Positions 1-16,698 of a stretch of 27,729 nt of DNA are shown here, in pieces (the stretch's first letter is position 1; every line of letters starts with the position of its first letter). The translations under genes were made by a program, and so were the position numbers. The stretch is from a virus: IMG/VR virus record IMGVR_UViG_3300041809_002690, positions 1 through 27,729 of that record. One strand, given 5' to 3'. The notes under the pieces are model-generated. The model searched no databases. It saw only the letters and a list, made by a program, of their open reading frames with translations, and was not told the DNA's origin.

Positions 1-1172
1 TAGTCCTGCGGCACGGCGGTTCCATATTCATACAGATAGCCGAAATACGTTTGCGCTTTTGCATATCCCTTGCCGCCATCGTCACCGCCGGATGCAGTGA
101 ACTTGTAAAGGTTCGGCACGCGGGCAAGAAAATTCGAGGCGTGCCACATGGCGTAATTCGTGGCGTAACTCATATATTGCTGGCTGCTGCGGACGATGTT
201 GGTTTGCAGGTAACTCACATATTGCTGGCCCGACACCCAGCCGACGATGGCGTTCGACACGCCGTTAAGTTGCACGACCGTTACGCCGCCGACCGCGCTG
301 TTCGTGTTTGCAAGCTGGCGGGCGATTGTGAAACTGCCATTTGGCTGATACGTTGTGGCTCCCACACCCTCCGATCCGCCGGAGGAATAATTCGTGCCGC
401 CTGTCATTGTGGACGTTGTGCCATCCGCCCACGTCACGACGACGGTCCAGGGATAGGTATTTAAGTAATCAGGCGGATCGCTGCGAACGGAGACGCCAAT
501 CACATCGCCGTATTGCAGCGACAAGCCGCTTGTCTGCGCCCAGTAAAGAACATCGTAGTTTGTCGCGTTATCAAATCCGCCTGGGTTGCGAATGACGGTG
601 CCATTCAGGGTCAGGACGACTGAACTCAACACCGGCGCGGCCTCTGTGAGAATGACGCTCTGCGGTGAACCGAGCGCGGTCTGGACGCGGGCAACGGGCG
701 GCGGCGTGAGGTAAAGCATCGCAGGCGATTTGAGCGGCGCAACGGCGGTTGCGGCCTGAATCTGCCCGGCGGAAAGGGTCAGGTTTGCGAGACCATCGGT
801 TTCGACGAGCGCGAAGGCGGGTTGCGTGTCGGCATTGGTGACGAGGAAAAAGGCCGTCTGGAACCGGTTGGTGGGGTCGTCGGCGTTGTATTGGACGAAG
901 CCGGTCATGTTCGTGCCGTCGAACTGGATGCGCCCGGACAGGCTCCACGTCGCCCCGCTGCCGAGTGTGGGCTGCGAGAGGAACAAGACGTTCGTGTCCA
1001 GCGTTACACTTAAGCCGGTTCCGGCCTGACCGGCAATGGCCGTGCCAGAGGCGTTGAAGCTGACAACGCCGCCGGACGCAGGCCAGAAATTCGTGAGCGT
1101 GTTGGTAAAAAGAATCTGCGCGTGGGCGGCAAAACAGCCACAGCAGAGAATCATGGCTAAAATTCGTTTCAT
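1..1172 (-). CDS. Exported Asn/Thr-rich protein after the J-like gene, partial (3' end outside window)
   Basis: The frame is open from an ATG at 1172 to the window edge, giving at least 390 residues. It opens with a clear Sec signal peptide (MKRILAMILCCGCFAAHA, then Q). The mature part is rich in Asn, Thr, Gly and Val, as expected of a beta-rich extracellular or fibre-like protein, with segments such as LFTNTLTNF and SGRIQFDGTNMTGF. The start codon overlaps the stop of the upstream J-like gene as ATGA, so it is probably translationally coupled and belongs to the tail-tip block. I recognise no family. Its place downstream of the tail-tip protein suggests a fibre or host-contact protein. A Sec signal on a virion protein is unexpected, so an exported accessory protein is the main alternative. 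Confidence 0.8.
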   Translation of the reverse strand, partial: MKRILAMILCCGCFAAHAQILFTNTLTNFWPASGGVVSFNASGTAIAGQAGTGLSVTLDTNVLFLSQPTLGSGATWSLSGRIQFDGTNMTGFVQYNADDPTNRFQTAFFLVTNADTQPAFALVETDGLANLTLSAGQIQAATAVAPLKSPAMLYLTPPPVARVQTALGSPQSVILTEAAPVLSSVVLTLNGTVIRNPGGFDNATNYDVLYWAQTSGLSLQYGDVIGVSVRSDPPDYLNTYPWTVVVTWADGTTSTMTGGTNYSSGGSEGVGATTYQPNGSFTIARQLANTNSAVGGVTVVQLNGVSNAIVGWVSGQQYVSYLQTNIVRSSQQYMSYATNYAMWHASNFLARVPNLYKFTASGGDDGGKGYAKAQTYFGYLYEYGTAVPQD

Positions 1173-4069
1173 GAAAAATAGGACGTGGTAATTATCGGCG
1201 AAAGCATAACAAGGACTTGCTGTGACCCGGTAAATCCAGGAGCAACAGACCAAACGGTCAGGTTAATTATCTCCGACGCAATACCCCCGCCGGACATGTC
1301 GGACAGCCCGTTGTAGGGCTGACACTGGCCAGGAACATAGGTCATCTGGGCGTTGTTAAACACAAACAGTCCGTTCTGCAAAATCGGGCCGCTTGTTTGG
1401 AAGTAAATTGTTGCGCCGGGCGTCGAACAGATGAGTGATACCGGCCCGTAAGCGACGGGCGACTGTGGAGCAATCACCCATTTGCCGGGCACATTGGTGG
1501 GCGTGTCGAAGCCAGCCGGATTGACGATCTGAATCCCTGCGGAGTCGAACAGAATCGGAAACGCACAAACAGGACTGGCATTGCCAGTGATGGTGACGGC
1601 GATGTCCTGCTCGGTGAAAAGGTTGGTCGCGTCACGGGCGATGAGTTTGATCGTCCATGTTCCGGGGCTGTCAATGGGGGCCTGCGTCGAAAACGCCATG
1701 CTGCCGGTCGGCGCGAACGTCTGGTCAATGATGACTCGATCTGCCGTGTCGGTAGATTTGCGAAGCAGGACCTTGATTTCAACAAGGCCGCCGTTCGGGT
1801 CTGTCCATTTTCCGGAAATCGGGATGTTGTAAGGATAAGCCGATGCGACAGCGGCGAGGGTGAACGTGTTTGGTTTTGACAGCGCGAGGCTCGGCACGCT
1901 GATGGAGTTAAGCGCGAACCGAAACTGTTCGTTCGCGGCATTGGACAAGGGCAGTTGCAGGGTGAATGTGTAAGGACACAACCGGAACTGCGCGTAAGCC
2001 GGCGTGAGGCCGGCGGCGCGGTTGGAGCGAAGGGTTGCAAACAGAGCGTTTGTAAAAACGGAAAGATTCGCGCGGGGGATGAGCCAGACCTCGCTGTTCG
2101 CGGCGGCGAACGCGCGCGCGACCGTGTTCTGGCGGCCGCGCAGCACGCCGAGTTGATACTGGCCGGCGCTGACCAGCGTCGCAACGCCGACGCTGCAGAT
2201 TTCTACCTCGCACAAACCGGTGGCATCCTCGGCTATTTCACCCGCGTCCGGAGACGTGCCGGCATCGGAGATGTTTTCACCGCCGGCCCCCTGGATCTGC
2301 TCGCCACCCGCGCCTACGAGCGGGTCGGACGGCACCACAGACACGACGATGGCGAGCATCGTGTCGGCCGCCTGTTCGTTCGCGGAAAATTGCTGCGTGA
2401 AGAAATCGGCGTCCGGCTGCGTGGTGTCCACGCTCACATTGAGCACGGCGTCTCCGGCGGCCACAGCCGTGTTCAAAACACCCTTCGCCGCGAAGCCGCC
2501 GAACGAGCCGAGCAACGCGAATGTTCCGGCCGGATTGGTGTCGAAGAACAACTGACAGCCGACGATCAAATTGCTCGGCCGCTGCACGAGGGCCGCCACC
2601 GCGCCGCGCTCATCGGACAGAACGGTGGGCACTTCAACGAAGCGGGCGTTGACGACAGGGGGCACCGTGTTGTTTTGCGGCGTGACCGGCGCCGCCTGCC
2701 CGTTCCAAGGAATCGCTGCGAGCGTGTTGTCGGCGAGCACCTCCAGCTTGATCGGTCCCGTCATCGGGATGGTGCGTTTCGTCACGCGGAAGAACTGCTC
2801 GATGGTGTATTGGTTCGGCTCGATGTCCACGTCGAGCAGCACATAATCGCCGGCCCGGATGTTGCGGCCGATTTCGCGCCGGACGGACAGGGTGCCGGTC
2901 AACTGCGCATGGCCTACGACACGAAGCGTTTCGCGGCCATGAAGCAAAGCCTGGCTCGCGCGCGTGATCCACGGCCGGTCCAGCGAAATTTCACGCACGG
3001 ATTTCAGCACCGCCCAGGCGCGCGGATCATCAGCGTGCAGGCTGGTCTGCTGGAAGTTTATCTGGCGGTCATTGTAGCGGACCGTGGCGCGCGAATAAGT
3101 GCCCTGCCAGCTTGTGCTCTTAAGCTGCGGCCGTTCGGTGAGGGAATCCTCCGTGAGGGTTGTGTAAGCCGCCGGCGCGACTCCGTGTTGATAAACCCCC
3201 ATCTCTATGAGTCCGGTCGAAGGGTTGAACCGGACAAAGCCGTCAATCATCTGCGTGAACTGATCCAGGACGCTGCGCAGCGTGTCGGACGTGTCAATGA
3301 GCGGACTCGCGCCGTAGAGCGCCTCGTTGTTTTGAAGATAGGCAGCAACAACGTTGAACGAAATTGAATCCAGCGCGGCGGCCGGCAGGCCGATGCCGTT
3401 CTCGCTCGTCAGCACCTCGGCGATGAACGCGGCCAGGTTGCACTGGCCGTCCACGATGCCGTTGTTCGGCGCGGTGACAACTGTTTGCTGCGGCGACCGG
3501 CGCGCGACAATCTCGATGTTCGGCGCATTCTGCACCTGCTGGCCGAGCAGGAAGCCGCCGGAATTTCCGTTCGGCGTTGTGCCCGGACCGGGAATGCAAT
3601 AGCAGATGCCGGCGTAGTTGGGGTGGACGTCGCTGGAGTCGTTGTTGCCATCGAGCACGGGATCAACCAACTGACCCGCAACGCCCCAATAAAAGCGCAG
3701 CGTGCCGTAGGGCGTGCCGTCGCTCGTGGTGATCGTGAAATCGTCAAAGAGTTCGGCGGTTTGCGCAAACACATATTCCACCCAAAAAGCCGGGTTGTTT
3801 CCGGGAATTGTCGGATCGGTGGCGGACGGATTTGCCGGGACCAGGAACGATTGCTGCGCGACCCAGGTCTGCGCGTCAAAAACATACATGTCGCCGTCGT
3901 TTACCCCGAACGCCGCGCCACCGCTGGGCCACGCCTTCCCCTCCGGCCAGACCTCGTTGCCATCCAGGATGATGCCGACCAGCTCCTGCACCGGGCCGAC
4001 GCAGACGCCGCACGCGATTGTCCCGTAGTAATCGTAGGTCGTGCTGGCGCTGCCGGATTTTCCACCCAT
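1169..4069 (-). CDS. J-like tail tip / host-specificity protein (Phage-tail_3 type)
   Basis: The product has 966 residues. The N-terminus begins MGGKSGS and continues with a tyrosine-rich stretch, then CGVCVGPVQELVGI, typical of tail-tip proteins of siphoviruses and gene transfer agents. Residues near 310-460 show the conserved pattern of the Phage-tail_3 family (ERPQLKSTSWQGTYSRATV, then LRVVGHAQL and IRAGDYVLLD). Residues 582-598 carry DPLVGAGGEQIQGAGGE, which recurs in the hub protein at 5911-7419. From about residue 830 to the end there is an immunoglobulin-like part with LICSTPGATIYFQTSGP, resembling the chitobiase/beta-hexosaminidase C-terminal type of domain. The protein should form the tail tip that contacts the host. 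It follows the NlpC/P60 gene and a 62-residue ORF in the same frame, separated only by TAA TTT. Confidence 0.9.
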   Translation of the reverse strand: MGGKSGSASTTYDYYGTIACGVCVGPVQELVGIILDGNEVWPEGKAWPSGGAAFGVNDGDMYVFDAQTWVAQQSFLVPANPSATDPTIPGNNPAFWVEYVFAQTAELFDDFTITTSDGTPYGTLRFYWGVAGQLVDPVLDGNNDSSDVHPNYAGICYCIPGPGTTPNGNSGGFLLGQQVQNAPNIEIVARRSPQQTVVTAPNNGIVDGQCNLAAFIAEVLTSENGIGLPAAALDSISFNVVAAYLQNNEALYGASPLIDTSDTLRSVLDQFTQMIDGFVRFNPSTGLIEMGVYQHGVAPAAYTTLTEDSLTERPQLKSTSWQGTYSRATVRYNDRQINFQQTSLHADDPRAWAVLKSVREISLDRPWITRASQALLHGRETLRVVGHAQLTGTLSVRREIGRNIRAGDYVLLDVDIEPNQYTIEQFFRVTKRTIPMTGPIKLEVLADNTLAAIPWNGQAAPVTPQNNTVPPVVNARFVEVPTVLSDERGAVAALVQRPSNLIVGCQLFFDTNPAGTFALLGSFGGFAAKGVLNTAVAAGDAVLNVSVDTTQPDADFFTQQFSANEQAADTMLAIVVSVVPSDPLVGAGGEQIQGAGGENISDAGTSPDAGEIAEDATGLCEVEICSVGVATLVSAGQYQLGVLRGRQNTVARAFAAANSEVWLIPRANLSVFTNALFATLRSNRAAGLTPAYAQFRLCPYTFTLQLPLSNAANEQFRFALNSISVPSLALSKPNTFTLAAVASAYPYNIPISGKWTDPNGGLVEIKVLLRKSTDTADRVIIDQTFAPTGSMAFSTQAPIDSPGTWTIKLIARDATNLFTEQDIAVTITGNASPVCAFPILFDSAGIQIVNPAGFDTPTNVPGKWVIAPQSPVAYGPVSLICSTPGATIYFQTSGPILQNGLFVFNNAQMTYVPGQCQPYNGLSDMSGGGIASEIINLTVWSVAPGFTGSQQVLVMLSPIITTSYFS

Positions 4070-4072
4070 AAA

Positions 4073-4261
4073 TTATTTCTTGGTTGGTGTCTGGTTTGGC
4101 GCGGGCGCGGTGTAGAGGTTGTAAATCTTGCTCATGGCTTTGACCGCGATCTTGCGCGTGCCGCCGAAGATGGCCACCGGCAGCGCCTGCTGCTGGGAGA
4201 TGCTCATCTGGTCGCCGACGCCGAACGGCTGCGCCTGGGGTGGTGATTGATTGCCGAACAT
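4073..4261 (-). CDS. Small tail-tip protein, possible detached N-terminus of the J-like protein
   Basis: The product has 62 residues: a Pro/Gln-rich start, then ISQQQALPVAIFGGTRK and AVKAMSKIYNLYTAPAPN. The pattern of a Gln-Ala-Pro-Val stretch, then a Phe-Gly-Gly, then a basic patch and Asn, is one I associate with the N-terminal part of some J-type tail-tip proteins. The gene lies 4 bases after the NlpC/P60 stop. It is in the same frame as the 966-residue ORF downstream, with only a TAA and one TTT codon before that ATG. It may be a separate conserved small protein, or the first domain of the tail-tip protein split off by a stop codon. I cannot decide between these from one sequence. Confidence 0.7.
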   Translation of the reverse strand: MFGNQSPPQAQPFGVGDQMSISQQQALPVAIFGGTRKIAVKAMSKIYNLYTAPAPNQTPTKK

Positions 4262-4265
4262 GTTT

Positions 4266-4754
4266 TTATTGGGTCAGGGGACGCCAGGCGCGGGCGATCC
4301 GGACCGCATAGCTCGCGTCGCGGATGTTGCTGAACTGGACGCCCTGCGGCCGCAGGCAATGCACGAATTTTCCATCCGCACCAATCAGCACTCCGCAGTG
4401 GTGGATACAGCCGCCGAGTTTGAAACCGAGCATGTCGCCGGGCCGGCAGGCTGCCGGCAACGATTGCCCCCCGGCGGCGGGGAGCGGCGCGAACAATGTT
4501 TGTTCGTCCATGAATTTCGCGATGAGCGATTCCGTTTGCGCGTGGCTCCAGTTCATCGGCCCTTCCGGCACCTGGAAATCTTTCGGCAGCGCGCCGGCCT
4601 CGATGAGGATCGCACCCACCAGTTTCTGGCAGCTCACGCCGGCGCCCTTCACGGCCGCGTTGGGCATGAAAGGCGTCCCCTTCCACGACTCCGCGACGGA
4701 CTCCAGCTTGAGCAGCCGCTCGACCGAATTGAAAAACGGATTGGTCGCGCTCAC
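4266..4754 (-). CDS. NlpC/P60-family tail peptidase
   Basis: The product has 162 residues and resembles tail-tip cell-wall peptidases of the NlpC/P60 superfamily, such as gp14 of the Rhodobacter gene transfer agent. Cys42 in GVSCQKLV would be the nucleophile. His118/His119 in CIHHCGVLIG matches the catalytic histidine region, and His132 (KFVHCL) the third polar position. RPGDMLGF just before the histidine is the usual strand leading to it. The nucleophile region has Ser-Cys in place of the commoner Asp-Cys. The enzyme would cut peptidoglycan cross-links during DNA entry. It sits between the BR0599-like protein (ATGA overlap) and the J-like gene, the standard place for it. Confidence 0.88.
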   Translation of the reverse strand: MSATNPFFNSVERLLKLESVAESWKGTPFMPNAAVKGAGVSCQKLVGAILIEAGALPKDFQVPEGPMNWSHAQTESLIAKFMDEQTLFAPLPAAGGQSLPAACRPGDMLGFKLGGCIHHCGVLIGADGKFVHCLRPQGVQFSNIRDASYAVRIARAWRPLTQ

Positions 4755-5353
4755 TTTTTACCGCCTCCGGGATTCTGGGTGATCTTCATCACAAAGGGAT
4801 TGCCGACGGGGATGAATGGGAATCCTCCGAAGGCCGGGCCGTTGTTGAACTTGGTGATGGCTGTTTCATATTGGCCGTCGTAGCCGGCGAAGATGGCCAC
4901 AACATCCCCCACATTCGGGGCGACGTTGAGCGCGGTGGCCAGGTTGACGGTGACCTGTCCGGCGGCGGCAGGAGTGGAATCGCTCACCATGCGGTATTGG
5001 CTCACGCCGTTCGTCGTGATCTGGACGTAGCCGGCCGCAAAATAATGCGCCGCCAGCACCGTCCCACCGTTGAGCGCGGCGTTGTTGGCGGAAATGCCGC
5101 CGATTACGAGTGTCGCGGTCGCCGCGTTGTAACTCACCACGGTCGCGTTCCACTGCCAGTCGGCGGCGTTGAGGCCGCTGGCCGGCTCGAACAAATTCCA
5201 GTTGTCGTTGTTCTGGTAAAGCCGGCGCGCGGCCGTGCGGTCAAACATCCAGCTCAACGAGGAGCATTGCGCGGAGAGGACGGGGCCGTCCATGTTCACC
5301 TCGCCGACCTCGCCGGAAAAATAACAGCGCAAATTGGTGGCCAGACTGTTCAT
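4751..5353 (-). CDS. Tail hub C-terminal half, BR0599-like
   Basis: The product has 200 residues starting MNSLATNLRCYF. The C-terminal third contains GYDGQYETAITKFNNGPAF followed by GGFPFIPVGNPFV, the hallmark of the phage BR0599 domain that ends DUF2163-type tail hub proteins (gp13 in gene transfer agents). The N-terminal part (GEVGEVNMDGPVLSAQC, then RTAARRLYQ) matches the linker and beta region before that domain. The DUF2163-like first half appears at the end of the 502-residue protein at 5911-7419, so the hub is divided between two genes with another gene between them. I chose the ATG at 5353 because it overlaps the upstream stop as ATGA. An in-frame ATG at 5362 is possible. Longer upstream readings are shadows of the preceding gene. 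Confidence 0.85.
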   Translation of the reverse strand: MNSLATNLRCYFSGEVGEVNMDGPVLSAQCSSLSWMFDRTAARRLYQNNDNWNLFEPASGLNAADWQWNATVVSYNAATATLVIGGISANNAALNGGTVLAAHYFAAGYVQITTNGVSQYRMVSDSTPAAAGQVTVNLATALNVAPNVGDVVAIFAGYDGQYETAITKFNNGPAFGGFPFIPVGNPFVMKITQNPGGGKK

Positions 5354-5889
5354 GGACGCCATTCCGAGTTCATGATGCCGAGCGTGCCGGTTTTGTTTGT
5401 CACGCCGACGACTTCGTTCGGGCCGACGCGCATGTAAAACGAGTCGTAGTTTGTGCCGAGGGCGGTAATGGAGCCGACCAACTGCGCGTCGCTGGTCGTG
5501 AAATTTGTGATCCATCCGAATGCGGCATTCGTCAACACAAAGTTGACCTTCAGCCAGCCCTGGGCGTTCGGACAGGTATATTGACCACCGGAGACAATCG
5601 GGTTTGAAACGCGGCCGAGCGCGGCGGTGTTCGTGGAGATGGCCGCGGTGTTCGTCGGGAAATGCGTTCCAATGTAGAGCGCCAGGTTTGTGGCATTGAT
5701 CTGGCCGTTGGTGATGCTGCCAAACTGACTGGTTGTCGTGGTGGCAAAAAGGAACGTATCGGCGGGTGCCGGCGTTCCGAATGGATATGTCAGCCAGTTG
5801 ACCGCGCCCATGCAGACCACGGCGATGACGCCAAGCACCCCGCCAACCGCGAGAGTTTTGAACTGTGAATTTCGATTTTTTGGTTTCAT
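5350..5889 (-). CDS. Membrane-anchored or exported protein inserted between tail hub halves
   Basis: The product has 179 residues. A basic N-terminus (MKPKNRNSQFK) precedes a single hydrophobic helix (about residues 12-31, LAVGGVLGVIAVVCMGAV), followed by an Asn/Thr-rich body. No good signal peptidase site is obvious, so a signal anchor is as likely as cleavage. I recognise no family. The gene starts a new translation block: its leader holds GAGG followed by eight A and C before ATG. Its stop overlaps the BR0599-like gene as ATGA. The same start context (eight A, then ACATGAAACC) occurs at the gpG start. The Asn/Thr-rich style matches the exported proteins at 1-1172, 10297-11319 and 15040-15519. 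It could be a small tip fibre or an exported accessory protein. Confidence 0.8.
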   Translation of the reverse strand: MKPKNRNSQFKTLAVGGVLGVIAVVCMGAVNWLTYPFGTPAPADTFLFATTTTSQFGSITNGQINATNLALYIGTHFPTNTAAISTNTAALGRVSNPIVSGGQYTCPNAQGWLKVNFVLTNAAFGWITNFTTSDAQLVGSITALGTNYDSFYMRVGPNEVVGVTNKTGTLGIMNSEWRP

Positions 5890-5910
5890 GTTTTTTTTCC
5901 TCTGTATTTG

Positions 5911-7419
5911 TTATGTGGGAGCATCGAGTTCTTCGCCGCCCGCGCCCTGGATTTGTTCGCCACCCGCGCCAACAAGCGGATCGGGCGGCAGGATGTCCGC
6001 CTCGAAGATTTGCACCTCCAGCGGAAATTCGAGCTGGAAGGGAATCAGCAGCGCCAGCGGGTTGCCGGCAAAATTGCGCGTCTTGATGCTGACGGTCTGG
6101 CGCTCAAGGTTCGGCGAGTCGGTGATGTCGTCGTTTTCAATCGGCGCGCTCACATAGACGTTCCCCTGCGCGTCCTGCAAATTCCGCTCGAAATTGGTGA
6201 AGCGGTAGATCGTGTTCGCGCCCGGCGTGGTGAGCGTGAAGATGTAAAGCATCGCCGTCGTCGGCAGCGGCCCCATCGTCTGCCCGATGGTCTCGCCGGC
6301 CACGGCCGCCGTTTCCCACGGCAGCTCCTTGAGCTTGAGCGACGCGCCGGCGAACTGCGAATGGATGAAATTTAATGTGAGTTTAATGGCGTCAAAACGC
6401 GCCAGGATCAGCGACTCGACGTTCGTCGTTCCCTGGCCGAACGCCGTGCCAACCGGCCCGCTCAAATTCCACTGGTTGCCGGCAACGGCCGTCACCACCA
6501 GCGGCACGCGGTTGTTGCCGTCGTTCAGGCAGACGAACGTGTTGGCGCCCAACGCGGACGGATTGTCCACGTTCAACACCGCGTCCGTCGCGGCCACGGG
6601 CGCCGTCAGATTTGCCTCCTTCAAGTTTGCCGGCAGCCAGAAGCTTTGCGTCTCGCCGCCCATCTGCGCGAAGAAAGAAAGCAGGTTCAGCGGGTCGCCG
6701 CCCTTGAGCGTGAGGTCCTGCTGCACGCGCCGGCGGTTCCGTTGCGTGTAGTAAATTTGAGAGAGGGCGCGGATCTCGCCGATCCGCATCCGGTCAATGT
6801 CGAATTCCGCCGTGCCGCTCTTGGGACTCGTCACCCAGTTGGCCGCGAACGGGAACAGCGGCCGCACGCCGCTGGCCGCCGCAATGCCGGCCGGCGGCAC
6901 GAACGCCGGCGGCGTGAGAAAATAATTGCTGTCATTTTCCGCGAAGGAGAATTCCACCGTCGCCACGCGCGAGGTCGTCAGCGGCGGATCGGGCTGTTCG
7001 GACAAAATCCCGACCAGCAGCGGATAGGCGAAGAGCGCGGCGGATTGCGCGTTGATGCCGCCGGCGGTGCAGATGGAATTGAAGCTGTAGTCCGGGTTGA
7101 ACAGCGCGTAGAACGCGGTCGTGGCCAGCGGCGCATTGCCCGGCACAAAGCCGCCCGGCCAGAACGGGCAGAGCACCGGCTCCGTGCTCGTCTGCTGGAG
7201 CGAGTTGCGCAGGTTGGAGAGCGCCCGCGGCGTGCGCAGCCGGGCCGACCACTTGAGCGCCAGGCGCAGCGTGTCGCCGGTGTTGCGCCGCGTCTCCTTG
7301 CCCGTCAGCCCGCGCTCGTAGGCAGACGGAATGGTCGCCTCCACCGAGACGCCTCCCGACCATTCCGGCCAGTCGTCCACCAGCCACGCATTGCTGCCGT
7401 TGAAGACGACGGGGATCAT
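5911..7419 (-). CDS. Distal tail / hub protein with C-terminal DUF2163-like half
   Basis: The product has 502 residues. The first half has PVVFNGSNAWLVDDWPEW and LKWSARLRTPRALSNLRN, typical of minor tail proteins placed after the tape measure. The C-terminal 120 residues (TLTTPGANTIYRFTNFERNL, then NVYVSAPIENDDITDSPNLE) look like the first half of DUF2163-type hub proteins, whose second half lies in the gene at 4751-5353. Residues 480-496 are DPLVGAGGEQIQGAGGE, identical to a stretch in the J-like protein, and the protein ends six residues later. I chose the ATG at 7419 because it overlaps the tape-measure stop as ATGA; the extra 14 residues upstream are Arg/Cys-rich shadow. The protein should join the tail tube to the tip. 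Confidence 0.85.
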   Translation of the reverse strand: MIPVVFNGSNAWLVDDWPEWSGGVSVEATIPSAYERGLTGKETRRNTGDTLRLALKWSARLRTPRALSNLRNSLQQTSTEPVLCPFWPGGFVPGNAPLATTAFYALFNPDYSFNSICTAGGINAQSAALFAYPLLVGILSEQPDPPLTTSRVATVEFSFAENDSNYFLTPPAFVPPAGIAAASGVRPLFPFAANWVTSPKSGTAEFDIDRMRIGEIRALSQIYYTQRNRRRVQQDLTLKGGDPLNLLSFFAQMGGETQSFWLPANLKEANLTAPVAATDAVLNVDNPSALGANTFVCLNDGNNRVPLVVTAVAGNQWNLSGPVGTAFGQGTTNVESLILARFDAIKLTLNFIHSQFAGASLKLKELPWETAAVAGETIGQTMGPLPTTAMLYIFTLTTPGANTIYRFTNFERNLQDAQGNVYVSAPIENDDITDSPNLERQTVSIKTRNFAGNPLALLIPFQLEFPLEVQIFEADILPPDPLVGAGGEQIQGAGGEELDAPT

Positions 7420-9734: not shown

Positions 9735-9735
9735 G

Positions 9736-10283
9736 TTAGTGTTTCATTTTCCGCGCGAGTTCCTCGTTGCGCTCGTTCATCTTTTCCGCGAACAGGTCGA
9801 GCTGCCGGAACGTGAGGCTTTTCAAGTCGCCCCAGCTCCAGCCCTCGTTGATCATCACGTCGCAGAGGGCTGCGAGGTCGGACTCGATTTCGGCGGCAGT
9901 TCGCCGGCGGTCGCGGAAACCAGCCGGCTTTTGACGTTTTTTATTTTCGAAGCGATGATGCCGATGTTGACCTCCAGCGCGGCGGTGATGATGTCCAGCA
10001 TCTCGGAAAGCGACCGCTGCTCGATCCATTGCGCGTCCATGCCGGTGGATTTTTCCACGAGCCAGGCGGCCAGCTCGACGTTGTCGCCGATGGCCTCCAT
10101 GAGCTTGTTGGCGTCCATGCAGATTTCGCCCTTGTCATTGACCAGCCCCTTGGCCTGGTCACGCAGCTTGTTGAAGAACGAGAGCGCGTCCGGCCACTTC
10201 AGCTCGTGGACTTCGATGCATCCCCCGGCCAGTTGCACGCGCGAGGTCGGGTTGAAAACGGGGAGTTCGGTTTTTGGTTTCAT
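9736..10283 (-). CDS. gpGT-like tail assembly chaperone, made by -1 frameshifting
   Basis: Translation starts at the gpG ATG (10283), reads 116 codons, slips back one base on A AAA AAC (9936-9942) and continues 66 codons in the -1 frame to a stop at 9736-9738. The predicted product is 182 residues ending ERNEELARKMKH. The T-part contains ALCDVMINEGWSWGDLKSLT and FRQLDLFAEKMN, a helical segment typical of the second tail chaperone. The overlapping second frame has no convincing start of its own: its only ATG region reads as His/Arg-rich shadow. In lambda, gpG and gpGT bind the tape measure and recruit tube subunits. The same layout lies here directly before the tape measure gene. The coordinates cover both frames, so this is a joined feature. 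Confidence 0.85.
9855..10283 (-). CDS. gpG-like tail assembly chaperone
   Basis: The unshifted product has 142 residues, starting MKPKTELPVFNPTSRVQLAG. The middle is acidic and helical (ELKWPDALSFFNKLRDQAKG, DANKLMEAIGDNVELAAWL), as in tail chaperones. After the slippery site the unshifted frame continues only 26 residues of Ser/Pro/Thr-rich sequence, which suits a throwaway tail. The gene lies between the tail tube and structural accessory genes on one side and the tape measure on the other, exactly where lambda G lies. The leader before the ATG is a run of A without a clear Shine-Dalgarno site. It shares the context ACATGAAACC with the gene at 5350-5889. Confidence 0.88.
   Translation of the reverse strand: MKPKTELPVFNPTSRVQLAGGCIEVHELKWPDALSFFNKLRDQAKGLVNDKGEICMDANKLMEAIGDNVELAAWLVEKSTGMDAQWIEQRSLSEMLDIITAALEVNIGIIASKIKNVKSRLVSATAGELPPKSSPTSQPSAT
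9903..9942 (-). promoter_or_regulatory. Programmed -1 ribosomal frameshift signal
   Basis: On the minus strand the heptamer AAAAAAC (9936-9942) is read as A AAA AAC in the gpG frame, a classic X XXY YYZ slippery site. A 7-base spacer (GTCAAAA, 9929-9935) follows. A GC-rich stem-loop comes next: GCCGGC (9923-9928) pairs with GCCGGC (9903-9908), and after a one-base bulge GGT (9919-9921) pairs with ACC (9909-9911), closing a 7-base loop. The -1 frame is open from here to 9736. All three canonical elements, frame, spacer and structure, are present. Confidence 0.88.
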
Positions 10284-10296
10284 GTTTTTTTTGTGA

Positions 10297-11319
10297 TTAG
10301 TGGATACCCATAAGGATGCCGTTGGTAAAGTTCATGGTCCGGTTCGTGGTGCCGAACGAAAACAGGATGTTGGTGGTCATGCCGCCGGGTGAAAGTGTGG
10401 TGCCGCTCAAGGTCAGCCCGGTTCCGGTGGAAACGGAGACCTCGGCTTTGTTACCATCGGTCGCCATGAGTTTGGACGACGTTAGTCCATTGTTTGTGAC
10501 CGACGTAGCAGTGACGGCGAAGCCGGCGATATTTGGGATGCCATACAGGTTGATGAGCGCGCCGTTTTGGCCGGCAAGATAGAAGGAGTTCCCGGGCTGG
10601 AACCAGAGAGCCTGCAAGCCCAGCCCCCCATCAAAAAATGATGCGTCCGTGTCGCTCATCGCGACAGAATTCCCCGACGTGCTGAATCCGCTGTCCAACA
10701 ACAACGGGGTGACAATTTCAAAAGTTGACGGATAAGCCGTGAACAATTCGCTGCCAGAACTCCAAACGGTAAAAATTGCCGTGCCGGACAGTGCAAAATA
10801 CATGTCGTAAAGCGGATTATTTGTCCACATCAGCATTTGAACCTGTGGAGTATCCACTTCGTATAAGTGAGCAGTGCCGCCGTTGAACGCAAAAACCGGA
10901 TTGGTTAGAACAATCCCATTGGCCCCAGCAGTGGCTGTGAGGCTGGTTGGCGCAACGTAATTATTTGTCCAAAGATACGTCACCAGGTTGCTCGCGCAGG
11001 AAACAAGCGTGTAGGTGTTGGTATCCGCTGGGACGTTGATCGTAAACGGGACGCGGCCGGGCAGGTAAACATAGTAGGGACCGCCGTCCACCTGGTTCGT
11101 GAAGCCGCCGTTCACCACGGTTATCTTTTGCGGCCCGTTCACCACGAGGCCGCCATTGGAAACCAGGCCGCCCGTGATCTGTGGCATCAACGTAAAAGAA
11201 CCATTGAACGGCACCAGGAAGATGTCGTGCATGTTCGTTTGCGTCAACGTCGCGGCGGTGGCAGCGCCACCGGCCATCACCGCCGCGACCGCAACAATCA
11301 TGATCCACAGCCTCTTCAT
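10297..11319 (-). CDS. Exported fibre-like protein in tail block
   Basis: The product has 340 residues with a clear signal peptide (MKRLWIMIVAVAAVMAGGAATA, cut likely after the Ala). The body is Asn/Thr/Gly-rich and beta-like (GGPYYVYLPGRVPFTINVPA). Near the C-terminus SVTNNGLTSSKLMATDGNK, then VSTGTGLTLSGTTL, resembles the repeat found in many phage tail fibres, where a Gly-Leu-Thr-X-Ser segment is followed by an Ala-Thr-Asp-X-Asn segment. The start overlaps the upstream stop as ATGA. It lies between the tail tube region and gpG, an odd place for a fibre gene. I read it as a fibre-like or decoration protein with an export signal. The receptor or role is not visible. Confidence 0.8.
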   Translation of the reverse strand: MKRLWIMIVAVAAVMAGGAATAATLTQTNMHDIFLVPFNGSFTLMPQITGGLVSNGGLVVNGPQKITVVNGGFTNQVDGGPYYVYLPGRVPFTINVPADTNTYTLVSCASNLVTYLWTNNYVAPTSLTATAGANGIVLTNPVFAFNGGTAHLYEVDTPQVQMLMWTNNPLYDMYFALSGTAIFTVWSSGSELFTAYPSTFEIVTPLLLDSGFSTSGNSVAMSDTDASFFDGGLGLQALWFQPGNSFYLAGQNGALINLYGIPNIAGFAVTATSVTNNGLTSSKLMATDGNKAEVSVSTGTGLTLSGTTLSPGGMTTNILFSFGTTNRTMNFTNGILMGIH

Positions 11320-11888
11320 GGCGTCCAGGTGCTGTTTGTGGGAGGCAGTCCGGGCGCGTTGGTGGCCAGCAGCGGCGGCCCGGAGGCGGTGGCGAATGCG
11401 TTGGAATTAATCAGCGACAGGTTTGCGCCGTTCGTGCCAGGCAACGCCAGCAGCGGCGTGAGCTGCACGATGCCGGGCCGGTTGGTCGGATACAGATAAA
11501 CCCCGGTGATGTTCGTCCCGGTATAGACGGTGATGTTGGTGCCGGCGGGCGGCAGGTTCGTCGTGCCGTAGAACGTGAAGCTGCCGGGCGAGTTCGATGT
11601 GTAAAGCCCCAGCGCGGGCGTATAGACCGTGTCATTGGTCGCGCTGAAGGTGGCCGCCCAAAGCGACCCGGCGAACGCGAACAGCAGCGCGATGACCGCC
11701 ACGGCCTTCGCCGCAGCGGCGGCAGCGCCGCCGGTTTTCGCCGGCGGAGTCACCACCTTGTCCGGCGTCACGATCCGCATTTCGGTTTCCGGCTCGCGCG
11801 ATTTGCGCAGCACGGGCAGGTCCTTGGAGAGGCCGCCCCTGGCCTCGCGCCGGGCGGGCAGCGGTGCCTTTGGATTTTTTTCGTTCAT
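11316..11888 (-). CDS. Single-pass membrane protein with exported Asn/Thr-rich domain
   Basis: The product has 190 residues in three parts. A basic cytoplasmic tail of about 55 residues (PARREARGGLSKDLPVLRKS) comes first. A hydrophobic helix follows at about 56-78 (AAAKAVAVIALLFAFAGSLW). The remaining 110 residues are Asn/Thr/Pro-rich and should lie outside the inner membrane (FYGTTNLPPAGTNITVYTGT). The leader has AAGGA five or six bases before ATG, a reasonable ribosome binding site. The stop overlaps the exported protein at 10297-11319 as ATGA, so the two are probably made together. No family is recognised. The long basic tail makes cleaved export less likely than a type II membrane protein. 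Confidence 0.75.
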   Translation of the reverse strand: MNEKNPKAPLPARREARGGLSKDLPVLRKSREPETEMRIVTPDKVVTPPAKTGGAAAAAAKAVAVIALLFAFAGSLWAATFSATNDTVYTPALGLYTSNSPGSFTFYGTTNLPPAGTNITVYTGTNITGVYLYPTNRPGIVQLTPLLALPGTNGANLSLINSNAFATASGPPLLATNAPGLPPTNSTWTP

Positions 11889-11915
11889 ATTTTTCCTTGG
11901 TGGGCGGGTTTCTGG

Positions 11916-12473
11916 TTACGAGCCGATGGCGGCCACGTTGAGGGCGTTTTTGTATTGGCTGAACAGCACCTCCGGCTTGGAGAGCGCGCCGCCGCCGCCC
12001 TTGAGGGCGTCGAGCTTGAGCCGGCCCCAGAGGTTGGCACTGAAGATGAGCGTGCCGTCCGAGGCGCGGTTGTCCAGGATGAGCCAGCCACGGAATACGT
12101 TGCCGGCGTCGGGGTTGAACTGGAGCGAGGTGGCATTGAGCGCCACGCTCTGGCCCGCCGCGTTGCCGGCGCGGAAGAGGATGCCGAGCAGGAAGGCGAG
12201 CAGCACGTTGCTGGTGAACTTGTATTCGTTGTAACCGTCGGTCTCCACCTCGTCGGCCAGTTGAAGGCGGCCGGTGCTGCCGTCCTTGACGGCTTCATAC
12301 TTCGCGTCCTTGCGCGTGAAGTCCCAGCTCTCGACGCGCTGGAAGTTGACCCAGCCGGGGTCGAGGGCGCTGGGGATCGCGCCCGAATTGCAGTTACCGC
12401 CGGCCTGCACCGCGTTCCCTTCAGGGAAGAACAGGATGCTGGCCCCGAGTGCCATTGATTTTTCGATGATCAT
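11916..12473 (-). CDS. Probable major tail tube protein
   Basis: The product has 185 residues. Internal features fit a tail tube subunit: VNFQRVESWDFTRKDAKYEA, then LADEVETDGYNEYKFTSNVL, and a final FSQYKNALNVAAIGS. It lies between the tail-completion-like protein and the chaperone/tape-measure block, where tube genes nearly always sit. It has its own leader and no overlap with neighbours, as expected for a highly expressed gene. The start at 12473 (MIIEKSMALG) could instead be the ATG at 12455 (MALGASILFF). The family is inferred from position and general character, not from a signature motif. Confidence 0.65.
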   Translation of the reverse strand: MIIEKSMALGASILFFPEGNAVQAGGNCNSGAIPSALDPGWVNFQRVESWDFTRKDAKYEAVKDGSTGRLQLADEVETDGYNEYKFTSNVLLAFLLGILFRAGNAAGQSVALNATSLQFNPDAGNVFRGWLILDNRASDGTLIFSANLWGRLKLDALKGGGGALSKPEVLFSQYKNALNVAAIGS

Positions 12474-12512
12474 GATTTTATTTGGTTGTTGGTTGTTGGT
12501 TGCTTTGACGGG

Positions 12513-12998
12513 CTATGGGCTGGCGTCAAAAAGTTGCATCGTCTCGACTTCGACGGAATAAACCTGCCGCTCCCGGTTGGCCTTGTCCCTGCCGGCGGAA
12601 AAATCGCCCTTGAGCACGCGCAGCTTCTCGAAACCGGCAATGTAAAATCCCTGGACGAGCCGCGCGACAAGCTGCGCCACGTCCACGGCCTTGGGCTTGG
12701 TCAGCGGATTGTCGCGCCAGATGACGGGCTGCTCGCCGATCTCGATGAACAGGTGGATTTTCGCGTTCACCAGGTCTGACAGCGGATCGTGGTTCGTGAA
12801 GCCCGGCATGTTGATCAGGGCGAGCATTCCGATCCGGCCGATGGCGATGTCAATTTTGTTGGTGATGTCCGCGTAGTCCTGCACCAGGACGGTGATGGCG
12901 GCCAGGCAGCCCTGGTTCGGCGTCCACAGGTTGCCGGCTCCGAATCCATTCGAGAGGCGGCCGGCAATGCCGGTGGTGAGATCGTTGAGCGTGGCCAT
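12513..12998 (-). CDS. Probable tail terminator / completion protein
   Basis: The product has 161 residues from the ATG at 12998, one base after the upstream stop. It begins MATLNDLTTGIAGRLSN, then has ITVLVQDYADITNKIDIAIG and a long alternating stretch with KIHLFIEIGEQPVIWRDN. Proteins of this size, with a helical start followed by a beta sheet and placed just before the tail tube gene, are usually tail terminators (lambda gpU or Mu gp37 type). The additional N-terminal residues in the longer open frame are shadow of the preceding gene. The role rests mainly on order and size. Confidence 0.65.
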   Translation of the reverse strand: MATLNDLTTGIAGRLSNGFGAGNLWTPNQGCLAAITVLVQDYADITNKIDIAIGRIGMLALINMPGFTNHDPLSDLVNAKIHLFIEIGEQPVIWRDNPLTKPKAVDVAQLVARLVQGFYIAGFEKLRVLKGDFSAGRDKANRERQVYSVEVETMQLFDASP

Positions 12999-12999
12999 G

Positions 13000-13632
13000 T
13001 CAGTTGTTCTCCCCCGTGTAGCGCGGATCGCCAAGCCTGCGATTGATATAATCCGACATCGCGCCGGTGGCGCAGCCGGCCAGCGCCGTCTCGGACGGCA
13101 GCACGGTCGGATCGGCGTCCTGGTCCACTTCCGGCACGAGCCAATACATCGCCAGCGCGCCGACGGTGGTGGTGGAATAATCGCCCTTGCGCTTGCCGCG
13201 CGTGATCTGTATCTGCAGCGCCTGCACCAGCATTCCGCCATTGCGCGTCGGAACAAATTCCAAATCGTCAAACTCGCGGGGCGCTTTGCCATAGGCTTCG
13301 GCGCGGGCCGGCTCGGCGAGCAGTGTGGCCACGACCGGTTTTATCGGGCCGCCCAACAGCCGCTGCGCCAGGCCGACGTGATTGATGGAGACGGAAGCCG
13401 TGCCGCCGCTCACCTCTGGCACCTGAACCGAGCGCGCCGCGTCCGCGTAAAAATGCGTCCGATCTCCCCCCATTTTGTTCGGGCGCTCGGCGTCGAGGTT
13501 GAAAAGATAATCCCGGAGGAATCCGGCCACGGCCCGGCCGCCGACCTTCGCCGCCTGCCCGGCAATGCCGGCGTCCGTCGCGCGCCTTTGCAGCACGGCC
13601 AGCTCTTCACTGTTGACGTTGAACGCAATCAT
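13000..13632 (-). CDS. Neck / tail-completion protein
   Basis: The product has 210 residues. The segment FLRDYLFNLDAERPNKMGGD followed by RTHFYADAARSV, and later AEPARAEAYGKAPREFDDLE, recalls a conserved prophage protein found among neck genes, but I cannot name the family with certainty. Its start overlaps the upstream gene's stop as ATGA and its stop is one base before the next start. This places it in a four-gene coupled neck block. It probably belongs to the connector or the tail-joining apparatus, like lambda gpZ or Mu gpG. Confidence 0.65.
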   Translation of the reverse strand: MIAFNVNSEELAVLQRRATDAGIAGQAAKVGGRAVAGFLRDYLFNLDAERPNKMGGDRTHFYADAARSVQVPEVSGGTASVSINHVGLAQRLLGGPIKPVVATLLAEPARAEAYGKAPREFDDLEFVPTRNGGMLVQALQIQITRGKRKGDYSTTTVGALAMYWLVPEVDQDADPTVLPSETALAGCATGAMSDYINRRLGDPRYTGENN

Positions 13633-14471
13633 GCCGCCTCCGCGAGTTTGGAGATTTTTTCGGTGAACGCCTTGATGGCGTCCACGATGTTCATCGGCTC
13701 CGGCGCGGCATCGCCCCTCTTCATCAGGCCGATGGCCTCGGCCTCGGCTCGGTCAATGTCGCGCACGTCCATGCCGCTATTGAAGGCGAACGGCGGCCAG
13801 ATCACGTCCAGCGCGTCGGTGAATAATTTCGACGAGCCGATCCAGAGCCAGATGTCGTGGTTCTTGAGCGCGATGAGCCGTTCGTCCGGTGTGATCGTCC
13901 AGCCGGTGCCGATGGGGTCGCCCGTCTGCGCGCCGGCGGTGCGCCAGCGGTTGATCCAGTCGCGTTTCTTTTCGCGGTCCTCGGCGCGGAAAAGTTCCTG
14001 CGCCGGGAACTGGTCCAGCACGGCGGCGTTCTGTCCCTGCGCCCACCAGCCCTCGCCCTGGGCGAGCTGCTTGTTGGTCTTGAGCACCAGGTTGATGCGC
14101 GCGTCGGAGGAAAGGTCGGCGATGGTCCCGGCCTCGTCGGGGCTGGGCGCGTATCCGAGTGATTGCAAAAGCTGCTTGGTTTGAAGGCGCGCGTAGGCGT
14201 CGGTTAATCCGACATTAACATTGCCCTGGGGATTGTCGGCCGTCACGCGGTCGGGGCGCTGCTCAACAACCGGGTTGAGCATTTTTTCGACGCGCGCTTT
14301 GTAGGCGTCGAGCAAATCTTCGAGCATCGTCTGCGCGGAAAAAAAAGATTCAGCGCGGACGCTGGCCGACAATGCGCGCAGCTCGGCGCTTGTGAGGTCC
14401 GTCGGCATGAGGCCGCGACGCGCCAGGCTGTCAAGCGCCTGCTGATTCGGTGATGGCGTGATGAGATCCAT
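13629..14471 (-). CDS. Conserved phage protein, probably head-tail junction
   Basis: The product has 280 residues from the ATG at 14471 (MDLITPSPNQ), one base after the upstream stop. The N-terminal half is helical and charged (FFSAQTMLEDLLDAYKARVE). The C-terminal half has FRAEDREKKRDWINRWRTAG and LKNHDIWLWIGSSKLFTDAL, then VIWPPFAFNSGM. The last motif, with tryptophans and a Pro-Pro-Phe-Ala-Phe, resembles the C-terminal domain of some head morphogenesis proteins, but I do not recognise the exact family. Position between the DUF1320-like protein and the neck protein suggests a virion component. The 15 residues added by the longer frame are shadow. Confidence 0.6.
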   Translation of the reverse strand: MDLITPSPNQQALDSLARRGLMPTDLTSAELRALSASVRAESFFSAQTMLEDLLDAYKARVEKMLNPVVEQRPDRVTADNPQGNVNVGLTDAYARLQTKQLLQSLGYAPSPDEAGTIADLSSDARINLVLKTNKQLAQGEGWWAQGQNAAVLDQFPAQELFRAEDREKKRDWINRWRTAGAQTGDPIGTGWTITPDERLIALKNHDIWLWIGSSKLFTDALDVIWPPFAFNSGMDVRDIDRAEAEAIGLMKRGDAAPEPMNIVDAIKAFTEKISKLAEAA

Positions 14472-14472
14472 G

Positions 14473-14916
14473 TCAGCCGTCCACTTCGTTTTGCCTGCGG
14501 TGCGGGCTGCGCCCAAACGCCGGCTGTGCGATGCCCTGCGTCATGTTTGCGGCTATCGGATTGTCCGGCGGGTCCACCAGGTCCTTGCCGTCGGCGATGC
14601 GGTTGAGTTCCGACGTCCGTTGCCGCAGCAAATCGCGCTCGCCGTCGAGCAGCTCGATCTCCAGCGCCGTCTTGATGCGGCAGACCATGATGTCCAGCGC
14701 CAGCGTCTTGAGGCCGCCAGGAATCTTCGTGGTGTCCACGTCGAGCTGGTTGCAGCGGGCAACCTTGCGCCGGATCTCCGCCGTCACGTCGGCGATGATG
14801 CCCGTCGTGCGGTCTTTCTGGTTGGTGCCCAGCGACGCATTGTTCGAGGCGTCAATCAGGCCCGCGACCTTCGTGTCGTAAAGGTCCTGAATCGTGATGG
14901 CAATCCACTGGCTCAT
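14473..14916 (-). CDS. Head-tail adaptor, gp36/DUF1320-like
   Basis: The product has 147 residues from the ATG at 14916 (MSQWIAITIQDLYDTKVAGL). It is all-helical, with a conserved scheme: a start strand, acidic residues (NQKDRTTGIIADVTAEIRRK), a central IPGGLKTLALDIMVCRIKTA helix, and an ending with DPPDNP. This matches the size and layout of adaptor proteins that cap the portal, such as Mu gp36 (DUF1320). It is the first large gene of the neck block. The longer upstream frame, Pro/Arg/Ser-rich, is not coding. Confidence 0.72.
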   Translation of the reverse strand: MSQWIAITIQDLYDTKVAGLIDASNNASLGTNQKDRTTGIIADVTAEIRRKVARCNQLDVDTTKIPGGLKTLALDIMVCRIKTALEIELLDGERDLLRQRTSELNRIADGKDLVDPPDNPIAANMTQGIAQPAFGRSPHRRQNEVDG

Positions 14917-14990
14917 TTTTCGATGGCGGCAAGGACGCCCTCCAGGCTGATGACCCGGAGCGCGATCAAGTATTTGGTCCAGAGTTTCAT
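14913..14990 (-). CDS. Small ORF of 25 residues before the adaptor gene
   Basis: A 25-codon frame (MKLWTKYLIALRVISLEGVL, then AAIEK) has a stop that overlaps the adaptor start as ATGA, the junction type used throughout this operon. It has a hydrophobic middle and could be a small membrane or leader peptide whose translation couples to the adaptor. No clear ribosome binding site precedes it, and such a short frame can arise by chance. Confidence 0.35.
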   Translation of the reverse strand: MKLWTKYLIALRVISLEGVLAAIEK

Positions 14991-15039
14991 TTGGTGACGG
15001 GGGCGATGGCTCCCGTTGAGCCACCGCCGCGCGTTGGCG

Positions 15040-15519
15040 TTAATACGTGGCTGTGTTGAGCGTGGGCCGGTCGATAGTCCAGCCCAGGTTGGTGACGGTT
15101 CCCGCGCCCGTATTAGTGAAGAGCGTGAAGTTCACGTAGGTGAATCCGGACAGGAACGGCTGCGACCAGTTCGTCCAGACGCTTACCGTGTTCGCCGGAA
15201 ACGTCGTCGAGTTCGGGGCGGTCAGGGTGAAGGGCGCCATGCCGAAATTCGTTCCGTCATTACTAAACGAACCCGACACGACTTCATTGCCGCCAGCGCT
15301 GCTGGCGAACGTGCGGCCCCCCACGGACAAACAACTGTTCCGCGTGAGTTGGATGATATTGGTGGCATTATAGACCACGTTGCTTGCCAGCGTCGCCGGC
15401 ACGTTGGTGATCACAACCAGGTCGAATGGACTGGCCTGGCCGAACGAGGATTGCGGCAGGCAGAAGGCGGCCACCGCGAGCGCGGCCGCGACGATGAGAT
15501 TTTTCATATATTGTTTCAT
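15040..15519 (-). CDS. Exported Asn/Thr-rich protein downstream of capsid gene
   Basis: The product has 159 residues. A signal peptide is clear (NLIVAAALAVAAFCLPQSSF then GQ), with cleavage likely near Gly-Gln. The mature part, about 130 residues, is beta-like, with VSGSFSNDGTNFGMAPFTLT and VSVWTNWSQPFLSGFTYVNF. This pattern resembles small beta-sandwich domains that bind or decorate surfaces; I recognise no family. A second start five codons in (ATG at 15507) is equally plausible. It sits alone between the capsid gene and the neck block, so a head decoration role is conceivable, but the signal peptide argues for export. Confidence 0.75.
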   Translation of the reverse strand: MKQYMKNLIVAAALAVAAFCLPQSSFGQASPFDLVVITNVPATLASNVVYNATNIIQLTRNSCLSVGGRTFASSAGGNEVVSGSFSNDGTNFGMAPFTLTAPNSTTFPANTVSVWTNWSQPFLSGFTYVNFTLFTNTGAGTVTNLGWTIDRPTLNTATY

Positions 15520-15548
15520 TGGATAATTTTGAGTGGTGTTTTTTTGCA

Positions 15549-15572
15549 GCGGGGCCGTTTGACCGGCCCCGC
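15549..15572 (-). terminator. Strong hairpin just after the capsid gene
   Basis: GCGGGGCCG (15549-15557) and CGGCCCCGC (15564-15572) form a perfect 9-bp stem with a 6-base loop, about ten bases beyond the capsid stop codon. On the minus strand it is followed by TGC and seven A, not by T, so it is not a canonical Rho-independent terminator. It could stabilise the capsid mRNA end or reduce read-through into the following genes. Confidence 0.5.
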
Positions 15573-15582
15573 CACAAGGGGA

Positions 15583-16698
15583 TTAACTTTGGTTGATGCG
15601 GAGCATGGACAGTGTTGACGTCTGGTGGATGTCACGGCTCCAGTCCACCAGGTGACCGCGCCAGAGTTGGTTGGGCGCGATGTAGGTGCGCACGTTGCCA
15701 AGGAACCCGGTGGCTCCGACGGTGAACGACTTGAACGCGCTCGGATCATAGATCGTCGCGCCGGGCACGCTGTAATGGATCAGGCAGGTGCCCTGCATCA
15801 TGCGCGTTTTACTGGGCGTCTGGTTCAAGCGCGTCGTGTCATAGACCACGTTCGCAATCATGATGTCGCACGGGAAGATCAGCGCGGCGGAAAGCTGCTG
15901 CGTGGTGATGGCCCCGATGGTCGTGGCCGCACCGAAGATGGCGCGGGCCTTGACCTTGGGATTGTTCCGCAGCGCGTTCCAGGCGGTCAGGTCCATCGTG
16001 ATCTTCACATTCTGCGTGCTGCCGCAATTTTGTGAGAGTTGGAGCAGGGCGGCGTCAATCTGGTCAATCGGGTCCACGTCAGGATTGCTCCACTGGCCCA
16101 GACCGGCCGGTGCGCCGGCCCAGCCGGGATTCACGGCGTTGAGCACCGTGGTGGTCACGTCGAGCACATGCGAGAGCGCCACCTTGTTGATGAGCGCCTT
16201 GATCTTGCCCTGGTCGAGCAGGTTGCTTTCAACCTCGCCGCCGGCATTGCCGGCCGCCTGATCCTCCTCCTTGTCCACGCGCACCTCCAGCGCCTGGGGC
16301 TTGCAGGAGTAGTAATCGTCCGTCGCGTTGAAGGCGACGATCACCGGATCGCCACCGAGCGCGCGCGGAGTTTTTTCCGGCATGAAGGAGTTCTTGTCGT
16401 CGAACTTTTTGAACTGGCCGGCCGCGCCGGGGACCGGCGTGGTGGGGGCCAGACGTTCTGCCAGCGCCAGGACATCCTGGATGTCGTTCCACAGCCCCTG
16501 GGCGTAATTGGTGAGCTGGTAATTCAGTGTCGCACTGCCTAATGCCGAGATCAGACCCATCGCATACGGGTTTGGATTCAACATGTTGGCAAGGCCGGTA
16601 TACAGGATGCAGGCGATCAACAGGCTCACCGGCGAATAAATCGCCCACAAGGTGATGAGCGCCAGCCCAAGCACGAATCTTTTCGTTGAGAATTTCAT
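15583..16698 (-). CDS. Major capsid protein with hydrophobic N-terminal extension
   Basis: The product has 371 residues if started at the ATG at 16698 (MKFSTKRFVLGLALITLW). The body fits a HK97-fold major capsid protein: LNYQLTNYAQGLWNDIQDVL, DKEEDQAAGNAGGE, VKITMDLTAWNALRNNPKVK, and a C-terminal segment with QLWRGHLVDW. It lies right after the decoration gene, the standard order. About 35 residues at the N-terminus are strongly hydrophobic (LALITLWAIYSPVSLLIACI), then capsid-like sequence begins near Met39 (16584) or Met47 (16560). Codon use in the extension is GC-rich at third positions like the rest, so it appears to be translated. An A-rich leader precedes the start. A start at 16584 or 16560 would remove the extension. 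Confidence 0.85.
   Translation of the reverse strand: MKFSTKRFVLGLALITLWAIYSPVSLLIACILYTGLANMLNPNPYAMGLISALGSATLNYQLTNYAQGLWNDIQDVLALAERLAPTTPVPGAAGQFKKFDDKNSFMPEKTPRALGGDPVIVAFNATDDYYSCKPQALEVRVDKEEDQAAGNAGGEVESNLLDQGKIKALINKVALSHVLDVTTTVLNAVNPGWAGAPAGLGQWSNPDVDPIDQIDAALLQLSQNCGSTQNVKITMDLTAWNALRNNPKVKARAIFGAATTIGAITTQQLSAALIFPCDIMIANVVYDTTRLNQTPSKTRMMQGTCLIHYSVPGATIYDPSAFKSFTVGATGFLGNVRTYIAPNQLWRGHLVDWSRDIHQTSTLSMLRINQS

Follow-up and report, generated by a model that had tools for sequence, protein, structure and literature searches.

The structural proteins of tailed phages are taken as made and assembled in the cytoplasm. Phage-encoded envelope factors follow another route, the models being lambda Lom, encoded after J, and HK97 gp15, and morons can sit between virion genes. 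Lom is a single outer-membrane protein with a Sec leader. The siphophage tail fibre counterparts that we checked, those of TPA2 and Ranunculus, are leaderless, as is gp46, a neck-module protein of the Guernseyvirinae phage FSL SP-031. In the open-licence full-text papers searched, we found no report of a tailed phage with fibres routed through Sec.

The virion operon and five exported-type proteins

The window, the whole stretch of DNA that was analysed, is a tailed-phage virion operon of 27.7 kb (an IMG/VR virus record). The head genes are Mu-type and the tail genes are lambda/GTA-type, and all the late genes are located on the minus strand. Their order is terminase, Mu-type portal, protease/scaffold, decoration protein, phrog_1005 capsid, head-tail joining genes, tube, and chaperone, and the tail end comprises the tape measure, hub and tail assembly genes, an NlpC/P60-type gene, and the J-type tip protein. 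The core neighbours named by profile search are TerL, Portal_Mu, protease, the phrog_1005 major head protein, tail chaperone, tape measure, tail assembly proteins, and the J-type protein. Five Asn/Thr-rich ORFs, designated E1–E5, lie among them, at the positions given by the first-pass annotation. The features from the capsid gene onward are as follows, where a slash marks the putative cleavage position.

15583–16698, minus strand: major capsid protein (phrog_1005, E = 8e-38); body from about 16563, with a 45-residue hydrophobic extension in front
15040–15519, minus strand: E1, directly after the capsid gene; leader 15439–15519, predicted cut FG/QASP
14473–14916, minus strand: probable head-tail adaptor, by position (as DUF1320 in RR1-B); 17-locus family
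11916–12473, minus strand: probable tail tube protein (core), by position and conservation as a leaderless family of 10 loci
11316–11888, minus strand: E2, between tube and chaperone; leader 11655–11888, predicted cut LWA/ATFS, with an Asn/Thr-rich domain behind
10297–11319, minus strand: E3, between tube and chaperone; leader 11254–11319, predicted cut ATA/ATLT
9855–10283, minus strand: tail assembly chaperone (core; phrog_1442)
7416–9734, minus strand: tape measure protein (core; phrog_2854)
5911–7419, minus strand: hub-type tail protein (core; phrog_1082)
5350–5889, minus strand: E4, between the hub and tail-assembly genes; leader 5803–5889, cut MGA/VNW by homology
4751–5362, minus strand: tail assembly protein (core; phrog_778)
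1169–4069, minus strand: J-type tail tip protein (core; phrog_1101), negative in the leader test
3–1172, minus strand: E5, after J; leader 1119–1172, predicted cut AHA/QILF; C-terminus past the contig edge

The first-pass annotation had assigned export signals or anchors to all five proteins. In a rule-based signal-peptide test, E1, E3, E4, and E5 indeed have short leaders with the layout expected for Sec and signal peptidase I (SPase I), i.e., a positive N-region, an uncharged hydrophobic core, and an AxA-type site. E2 deviates from the classical short signal peptide, since a charged N-region of 60 residues precedes its hydrophobic segment and AxA site. The residue at position −3 in E4 is Met, where the two closest homologues have Ala.

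The E genes are tightly packed into the operon. E2 and E3 overlap by 4 bases, J and E5 by 4 bases, and E4 and the tail assembly gene by 13 bases. These overlaps suggest that the E genes are coupled with the late operon. Promoter-like and terminator-like sites at the E genes were not above those in shuffled sequences, in a scan with a sigma-70 pattern from which Verrucomicrobia promoters may differ. Together, the overlaps and the absence of an excess of promoter-like sites are consistent with E genes expressed as part of the late operon.

E1–E5 matched no family in PHROG (E ≤ 0.01) or Pfam (family cut-off), and no fibre sequence module was recognised in them by these profile searches. A tblastn search with E1 against the phage collection gave no match, and a short domain scan of viral contigs gave no relatives. 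The AF2 model of E1 is a beta-sandwich (pLDDT 80), whose structural matches are jelly-roll folds including CBM16 and phage tailspike domains. A function for E1 was not drawn from the fold, because the beta-sandwich is generic and Z values of up to about 9 extend to many unrelated proteins. The pLDDT of the predicted E5 structure is 39.

Two further exported-type genes are located ahead of the terminase gene: 24747–25343, signal-bearing with a beta-barrel-like end, and 25660–26019, a small lipoprotein.

A search of 84,980 bacterial and archaeal genomes gave 27 capsid-protein relatives, every one of them in Verrucomicrobiota, though the host-genome records are mostly MAGs and any single assignment may be mis-binned. 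The closest ones (62–66% identity) are in Verrucomicrobia MAGs, two of which are labelled subdivision 3. Capsid genes of this family are also found beside restriction/defence-like genes, with no tail genes, in two Opitutaceae MAGs (L024 and L028) and IMCC26134 (L027). These loci look like a capsid-bearing island or satellite, and L024 and L028 were left out as tail controls since they have a capsid gene without tail genes. In one relative (L121, in record G003), a DNA transposition protein (phrog_296) adjoins a 730-residue protein and a ParB-like gene (7661–10969). Judging from such genes, the relatives of the window look like Mu-type transposable phages. A lytic lifestyle deduced from the missing integrase was thus not adopted; a temperate lifestyle, and hence a role in lysogens, is possible for this phage group.

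Leaders, slots, and families in relatives

The leader rule was devised in this analysis and requires a positive N-region, an uncharged hydrophobic stretch, and an SPase I-type site. In the controls, it selected 0/24 proteins of Mu, 1/24 of lambda (Lom, which is truly exported), 0/30 of verrucophage P8625, and 0/31 of the RR1-B virion run. The SignalP run by the P8625 authors gave no signal peptide either (PMC4642752). The leader pattern is therefore general neither to tailed phages nor to all verrucophages. Among the core proteins of the window, the rule selects the capsid protein alone, and this only if the long start is taken.

The families were compared in 18 related loci and the window. 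Leaders are predicted for 0 of 172 core genes (a scripted count of 4/176 minus the four E5 genes), 13 of 15 genes in the E1 family, and 4 of 4 in the E5 family, which consists of E5 and the proteins after J in L097, L098, and L099. Asn/Thr richness and leaders also coincide (36/58 vs 28/350, Fisher p = 2e-19) in 53 loci, which include near-identical ones and are not independent. From these counts, the occurrence of putative leader-bearing proteins in virion slots is not due to chance, and in this respect the first-pass annotation, which had argued the same from their spacing, was right.

The positions are replicated in relatives, in agreement with the module-by-module placement noted earlier for the five. 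The post-capsid slot holds a leader-bearing protein in 25 non-redundant loci by eye and 18 by rule; L014, L015, L042, L107, L108, L110, and L114 were judged by eye. The slot between tube and tape measure is filled in the window, L003, L005–L008, and L096–L100, the hub-adjacent slot in the window, L099, and L100, and the post-J slot in the window and L097–L099. No such proteins were found in L012 and L081, which are relatives with intact tails.

The hub and tail-assembly genes, which are separate in the window (4751–7419) with E4 between them, are fused as one ORF in L015 (14128–16131) and L096–L100. A small Pro-rich ORF (HKNPPKPHTP-like) lies between the tube and the leader-bearing protein in L099 (4315–4473) and L100 (4413–4574), and a similar Pro-rich sequence is fused onto the leader-bearing protein in L014, L015, and L045.

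The mature N-termini of E1, E2, and E4 are conserved whatever the leader. In the alignment of the E1 family, AxA is followed by QV[TSYN]P in most members, while the leader ahead varies. It may be a plain Sec leader or a prepilin-like one (L005, L007, L017, L042, L102, and L106); in L107 and L110, a cytoplasmic domain precedes the hydrophobic segment. The E2 relatives in L096, L098, and L106 have a common mature start behind leaders of about 20 to 95 residues. E4 is 46–47% identical to the proteins at L099:10613–11098 and L100:10614–11099, which are next to the hub gene, and these leaders end in GA/V[DN]W. The likeness of E3 to leader-bearing proteins in L003, L005, L008, L018, L107, and L115 is limited to a weakly similar N-terminal domain (14–23% identity).

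The prepilin-like leaders should be noted. The six resemble the GFTLxQ/E-type motif of type IV pilins and pseudopilins. However, the Gly before Phe is missing in L007, L042, and L106, Glu5 is often missing, and an SPase I-type AxA site follows. A type IV prepilin identity for E1 was rejected: the motif is incomplete in most of the six and absent from the E1 of the window, and the mature part is predicted to be a beta-sandwich.

The same observations bear on whether the leaders have an export function at all; they might instead be miscalled starts or the hydrophobic cores of cytoplasmic fibres, and the first-pass annotation had named a coiled or chaperone-bound segment as a possible refutation. 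Export here is predicted from sequence, and the leaders evolve faster than the mature parts (pooled pN/pS in close pairs of 0.51 vs 0.29). These ratios indicate that the predicted leaders are translated and under purifying selection, looser than that on the mature parts. A leader that is constrained but only loosely, and can be swapped, is as expected of a generic targeting signal. The leader sequences are readily exchanged in front of a constant mature start, which speaks against a conserved coiled or chaperone-binding segment, yet the order of positive region, hydrophobic stretch, and AxA site is always kept. Moreover, E1 and E5 have no Met at the mature start, core virion proteins never score, and leaderless homologues exist elsewhere. 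We therefore regard leaders without export function as very improbable.

Independent moron-type insertions that are exported by coincidence, for which lom in lambda is a precedent, are hardly credible as an account of the E genes. The sporadic presence of morons is not what we found, since the same slots are occupied across many relatives, the families are homologous (E4 is 47% identical in the same slot), and the genes overlap. The earlier suggestion that the genes might turn out to be random insertions lost from the closest relatives thus failed, as relatives keep the same slots, families, and leaders.

Fibre and neck-protein modules behind leaders

In some relatives, recognisable virion modules follow the leader. 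The protein at L016:7600–8637 has a leader and then GLxNVDNTSDxxKP repeats, which are those of siphophage tail fibre and minor tail proteins (PHROG tail fiber families). Its profile matches are to tail fibre and minor tail families (E to 6e-29), and tblastn aligns it with minor tail proteins encoded by Arthrobacter and Gordonia phages. This fibre occupies a slot other than those of the E proteins in the window. Leader-bearing proteins in L006 and L046 match PHROG tail-fibre profiles as well. By these matches, some putatively exported proteins of the relatives are clearly tail-fibre proteins. They differ from the siphophage counterparts in having Sec leaders and in lying outside the usual post-J position, and the window's own proteins differ from both in showing no such sequence match. 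Proteins in L014 and L096 resemble beta-helix spikes by eye, without profile confirmation.

The protein in L020 provides a second kind of module. It has a leader, followed by the N-terminal domain of FSL SP-031 gp46 and an SGNH hydrolase domain in the alignment. Leaderless gp46 of this Salmonella phage opens with the domain at residue 3, whereas L020 adds the leader in front of it and the hydrolase domain behind it.

The fibre repeats and the neck-protein domain after a leader favour the reading that E1–E5 are exported appendage or decoration proteins. We tentatively regard them as Sec-exported parts of the virion that would dock on core particles at lysis, with a chance of being right that falls just short of even. 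Against this reading, the five proteins of the window match no named fibre family, the fold of E1 is generic, two relatives with intact tails (L012 and L081) have no such proteins, and the sequences that point to fibres all belong to other members of the family.

An unlikely alternative, which nevertheless deserves weight, is that the E proteins are exported to act on the host envelope and are not in the virion, e.g., by masking receptors against superinfection or altering the lysogen surface. The Sec leaders look real, the post-J position is held in lambda by lom, the relatives carry Mu-type transposition genes and are perhaps temperate, and the window has the other exported-type genes ahead of the terminase. 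E5 shares with Lom both the leader and the position; it differs in having no profile match to Lom, in overlapping J, and in belonging to a clade with several such genes. Against this alternative, the E genes are packed into the late operon and overlap its genes, with no excess of promoter-like sites in the scan limited to the sigma-70 pattern; each genome has several E-type genes, at set positions; and fibre repeats and a neck-protein domain occur in relatives with this arrangement. Finally, no leaderless fibre candidate was seen by eye among the listed gene calls of the near-complete relatives G003 and G004 (about 41.5 kb), records without end repeats that may be incomplete.

Hydrophobic head-protein starts and a possible assembly route

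The capsid protein of the window has 45 hydrophobic residues in frame before its body (16564–16698). A hydrophobic start had been suspected from the first reading, and the extension is present. It is absent from close relatives (75% identical), in which the start corresponds to an internal Met (ATG), and from most other relatives. The capsid protein in L102 (from 8406), whose body is only about 27% identical, has a similar extension ending in LNPKPYALG, where that of the window ends in LNPNPYAMG (LNPxPYAxG in common), and that in L111 (from 7998) has a hydrophobic N-terminal extension, too. A start-call artefact was therefore dropped; judging from these two divergent proteins, the extension is probably real, though not general. 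A start of the L101 capsid protein that resembles a signal was discounted, since close relatives lack it. In L101, the head decoration protein (11225–11878) has a hydrophobic N-terminal segment, as do its relatives in L113, L114, L115, and L117, a group with another capsid protein. Several L101 head proteins (protease, decoration, and capsid genes, 9457–13141) also contain a repeated FAN[DE] motif, possibly a prohead protease site. The protease and portal of the window have a repeated xNR in its place.

One possibility is that the capsid extension is a membrane tether. More broadly, uncut leaders may act as anchors, so that head and tail parts assemble tethered at the inner membrane through the E proteins, in some cases with the capsid or decoration protein as a further anchor. 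The cytoplasmic domains ahead of the hydrophobic segment in E2, L107, and L110 fit this, together with the capsid-protein extensions in the window, L102, and L111 and the hydrophobic start of the decoration protein in the L101 group. However, the conserved AxA sites and mature starts in E1, E2, and E4 are as expected for cleavage, and most relatives have no capsid extension, so that anchoring is not generally needed. We consider such tethering quite unlikely. Thus, among the meanings first proposed for the leaders, exported appendages or decoration are favoured by the relatives, envelope factors and inner-membrane assembly stay as rivals, and the earlier interpretation as a whole is partly supported.

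For the exported appendage reading, the basis at the sequence level consists of the leaders, the fixed slots, the conserved mature starts, the leaderless core, and the fibre modules behind leaders in relatives. From these we infer leader-directed export and cleavage, virion membership of the five proteins, and the place and time of docking. E1–E5 would be translated from the late operon along with the adjoining core protein, cross the inner membrane by the host Sec pathway, have their leaders removed by signal peptidase I, and reach their folded state in the periplasm. The core of head and tail would meanwhile be put together in the cytoplasm. At lysis, the released particles would meet the periplasmic appendages, and docking would follow. 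We infer this order of the steps after translation. A clade of phages with such two-compartment assembly, in which the core is cytoplasmic and the appendages of head, tube, hub, and tip are Sec-exported, matured in the periplasm, and joined on lysis, is plausible, though rather less likely than not.

Phage appendage proteins are a known kind of protein; the Sec route for them would be new and surprising. The analysis suggests that outer parts may be made outside the cytoplasm in tailed viruses of Verrucomicrobia, for which there are very few cultured phages. If this is true, the secretion system of the host would be tied to particle assembly, to the evolution of receptor binding, and to the timing of lysis. 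Receptor-binding proteins would then escape annotation pipelines in which exported phage proteins count as morons, and exported genes could reveal host specificity in Verrucomicrobia. E1–E5 also make up a set of proteins that can be tested directly.
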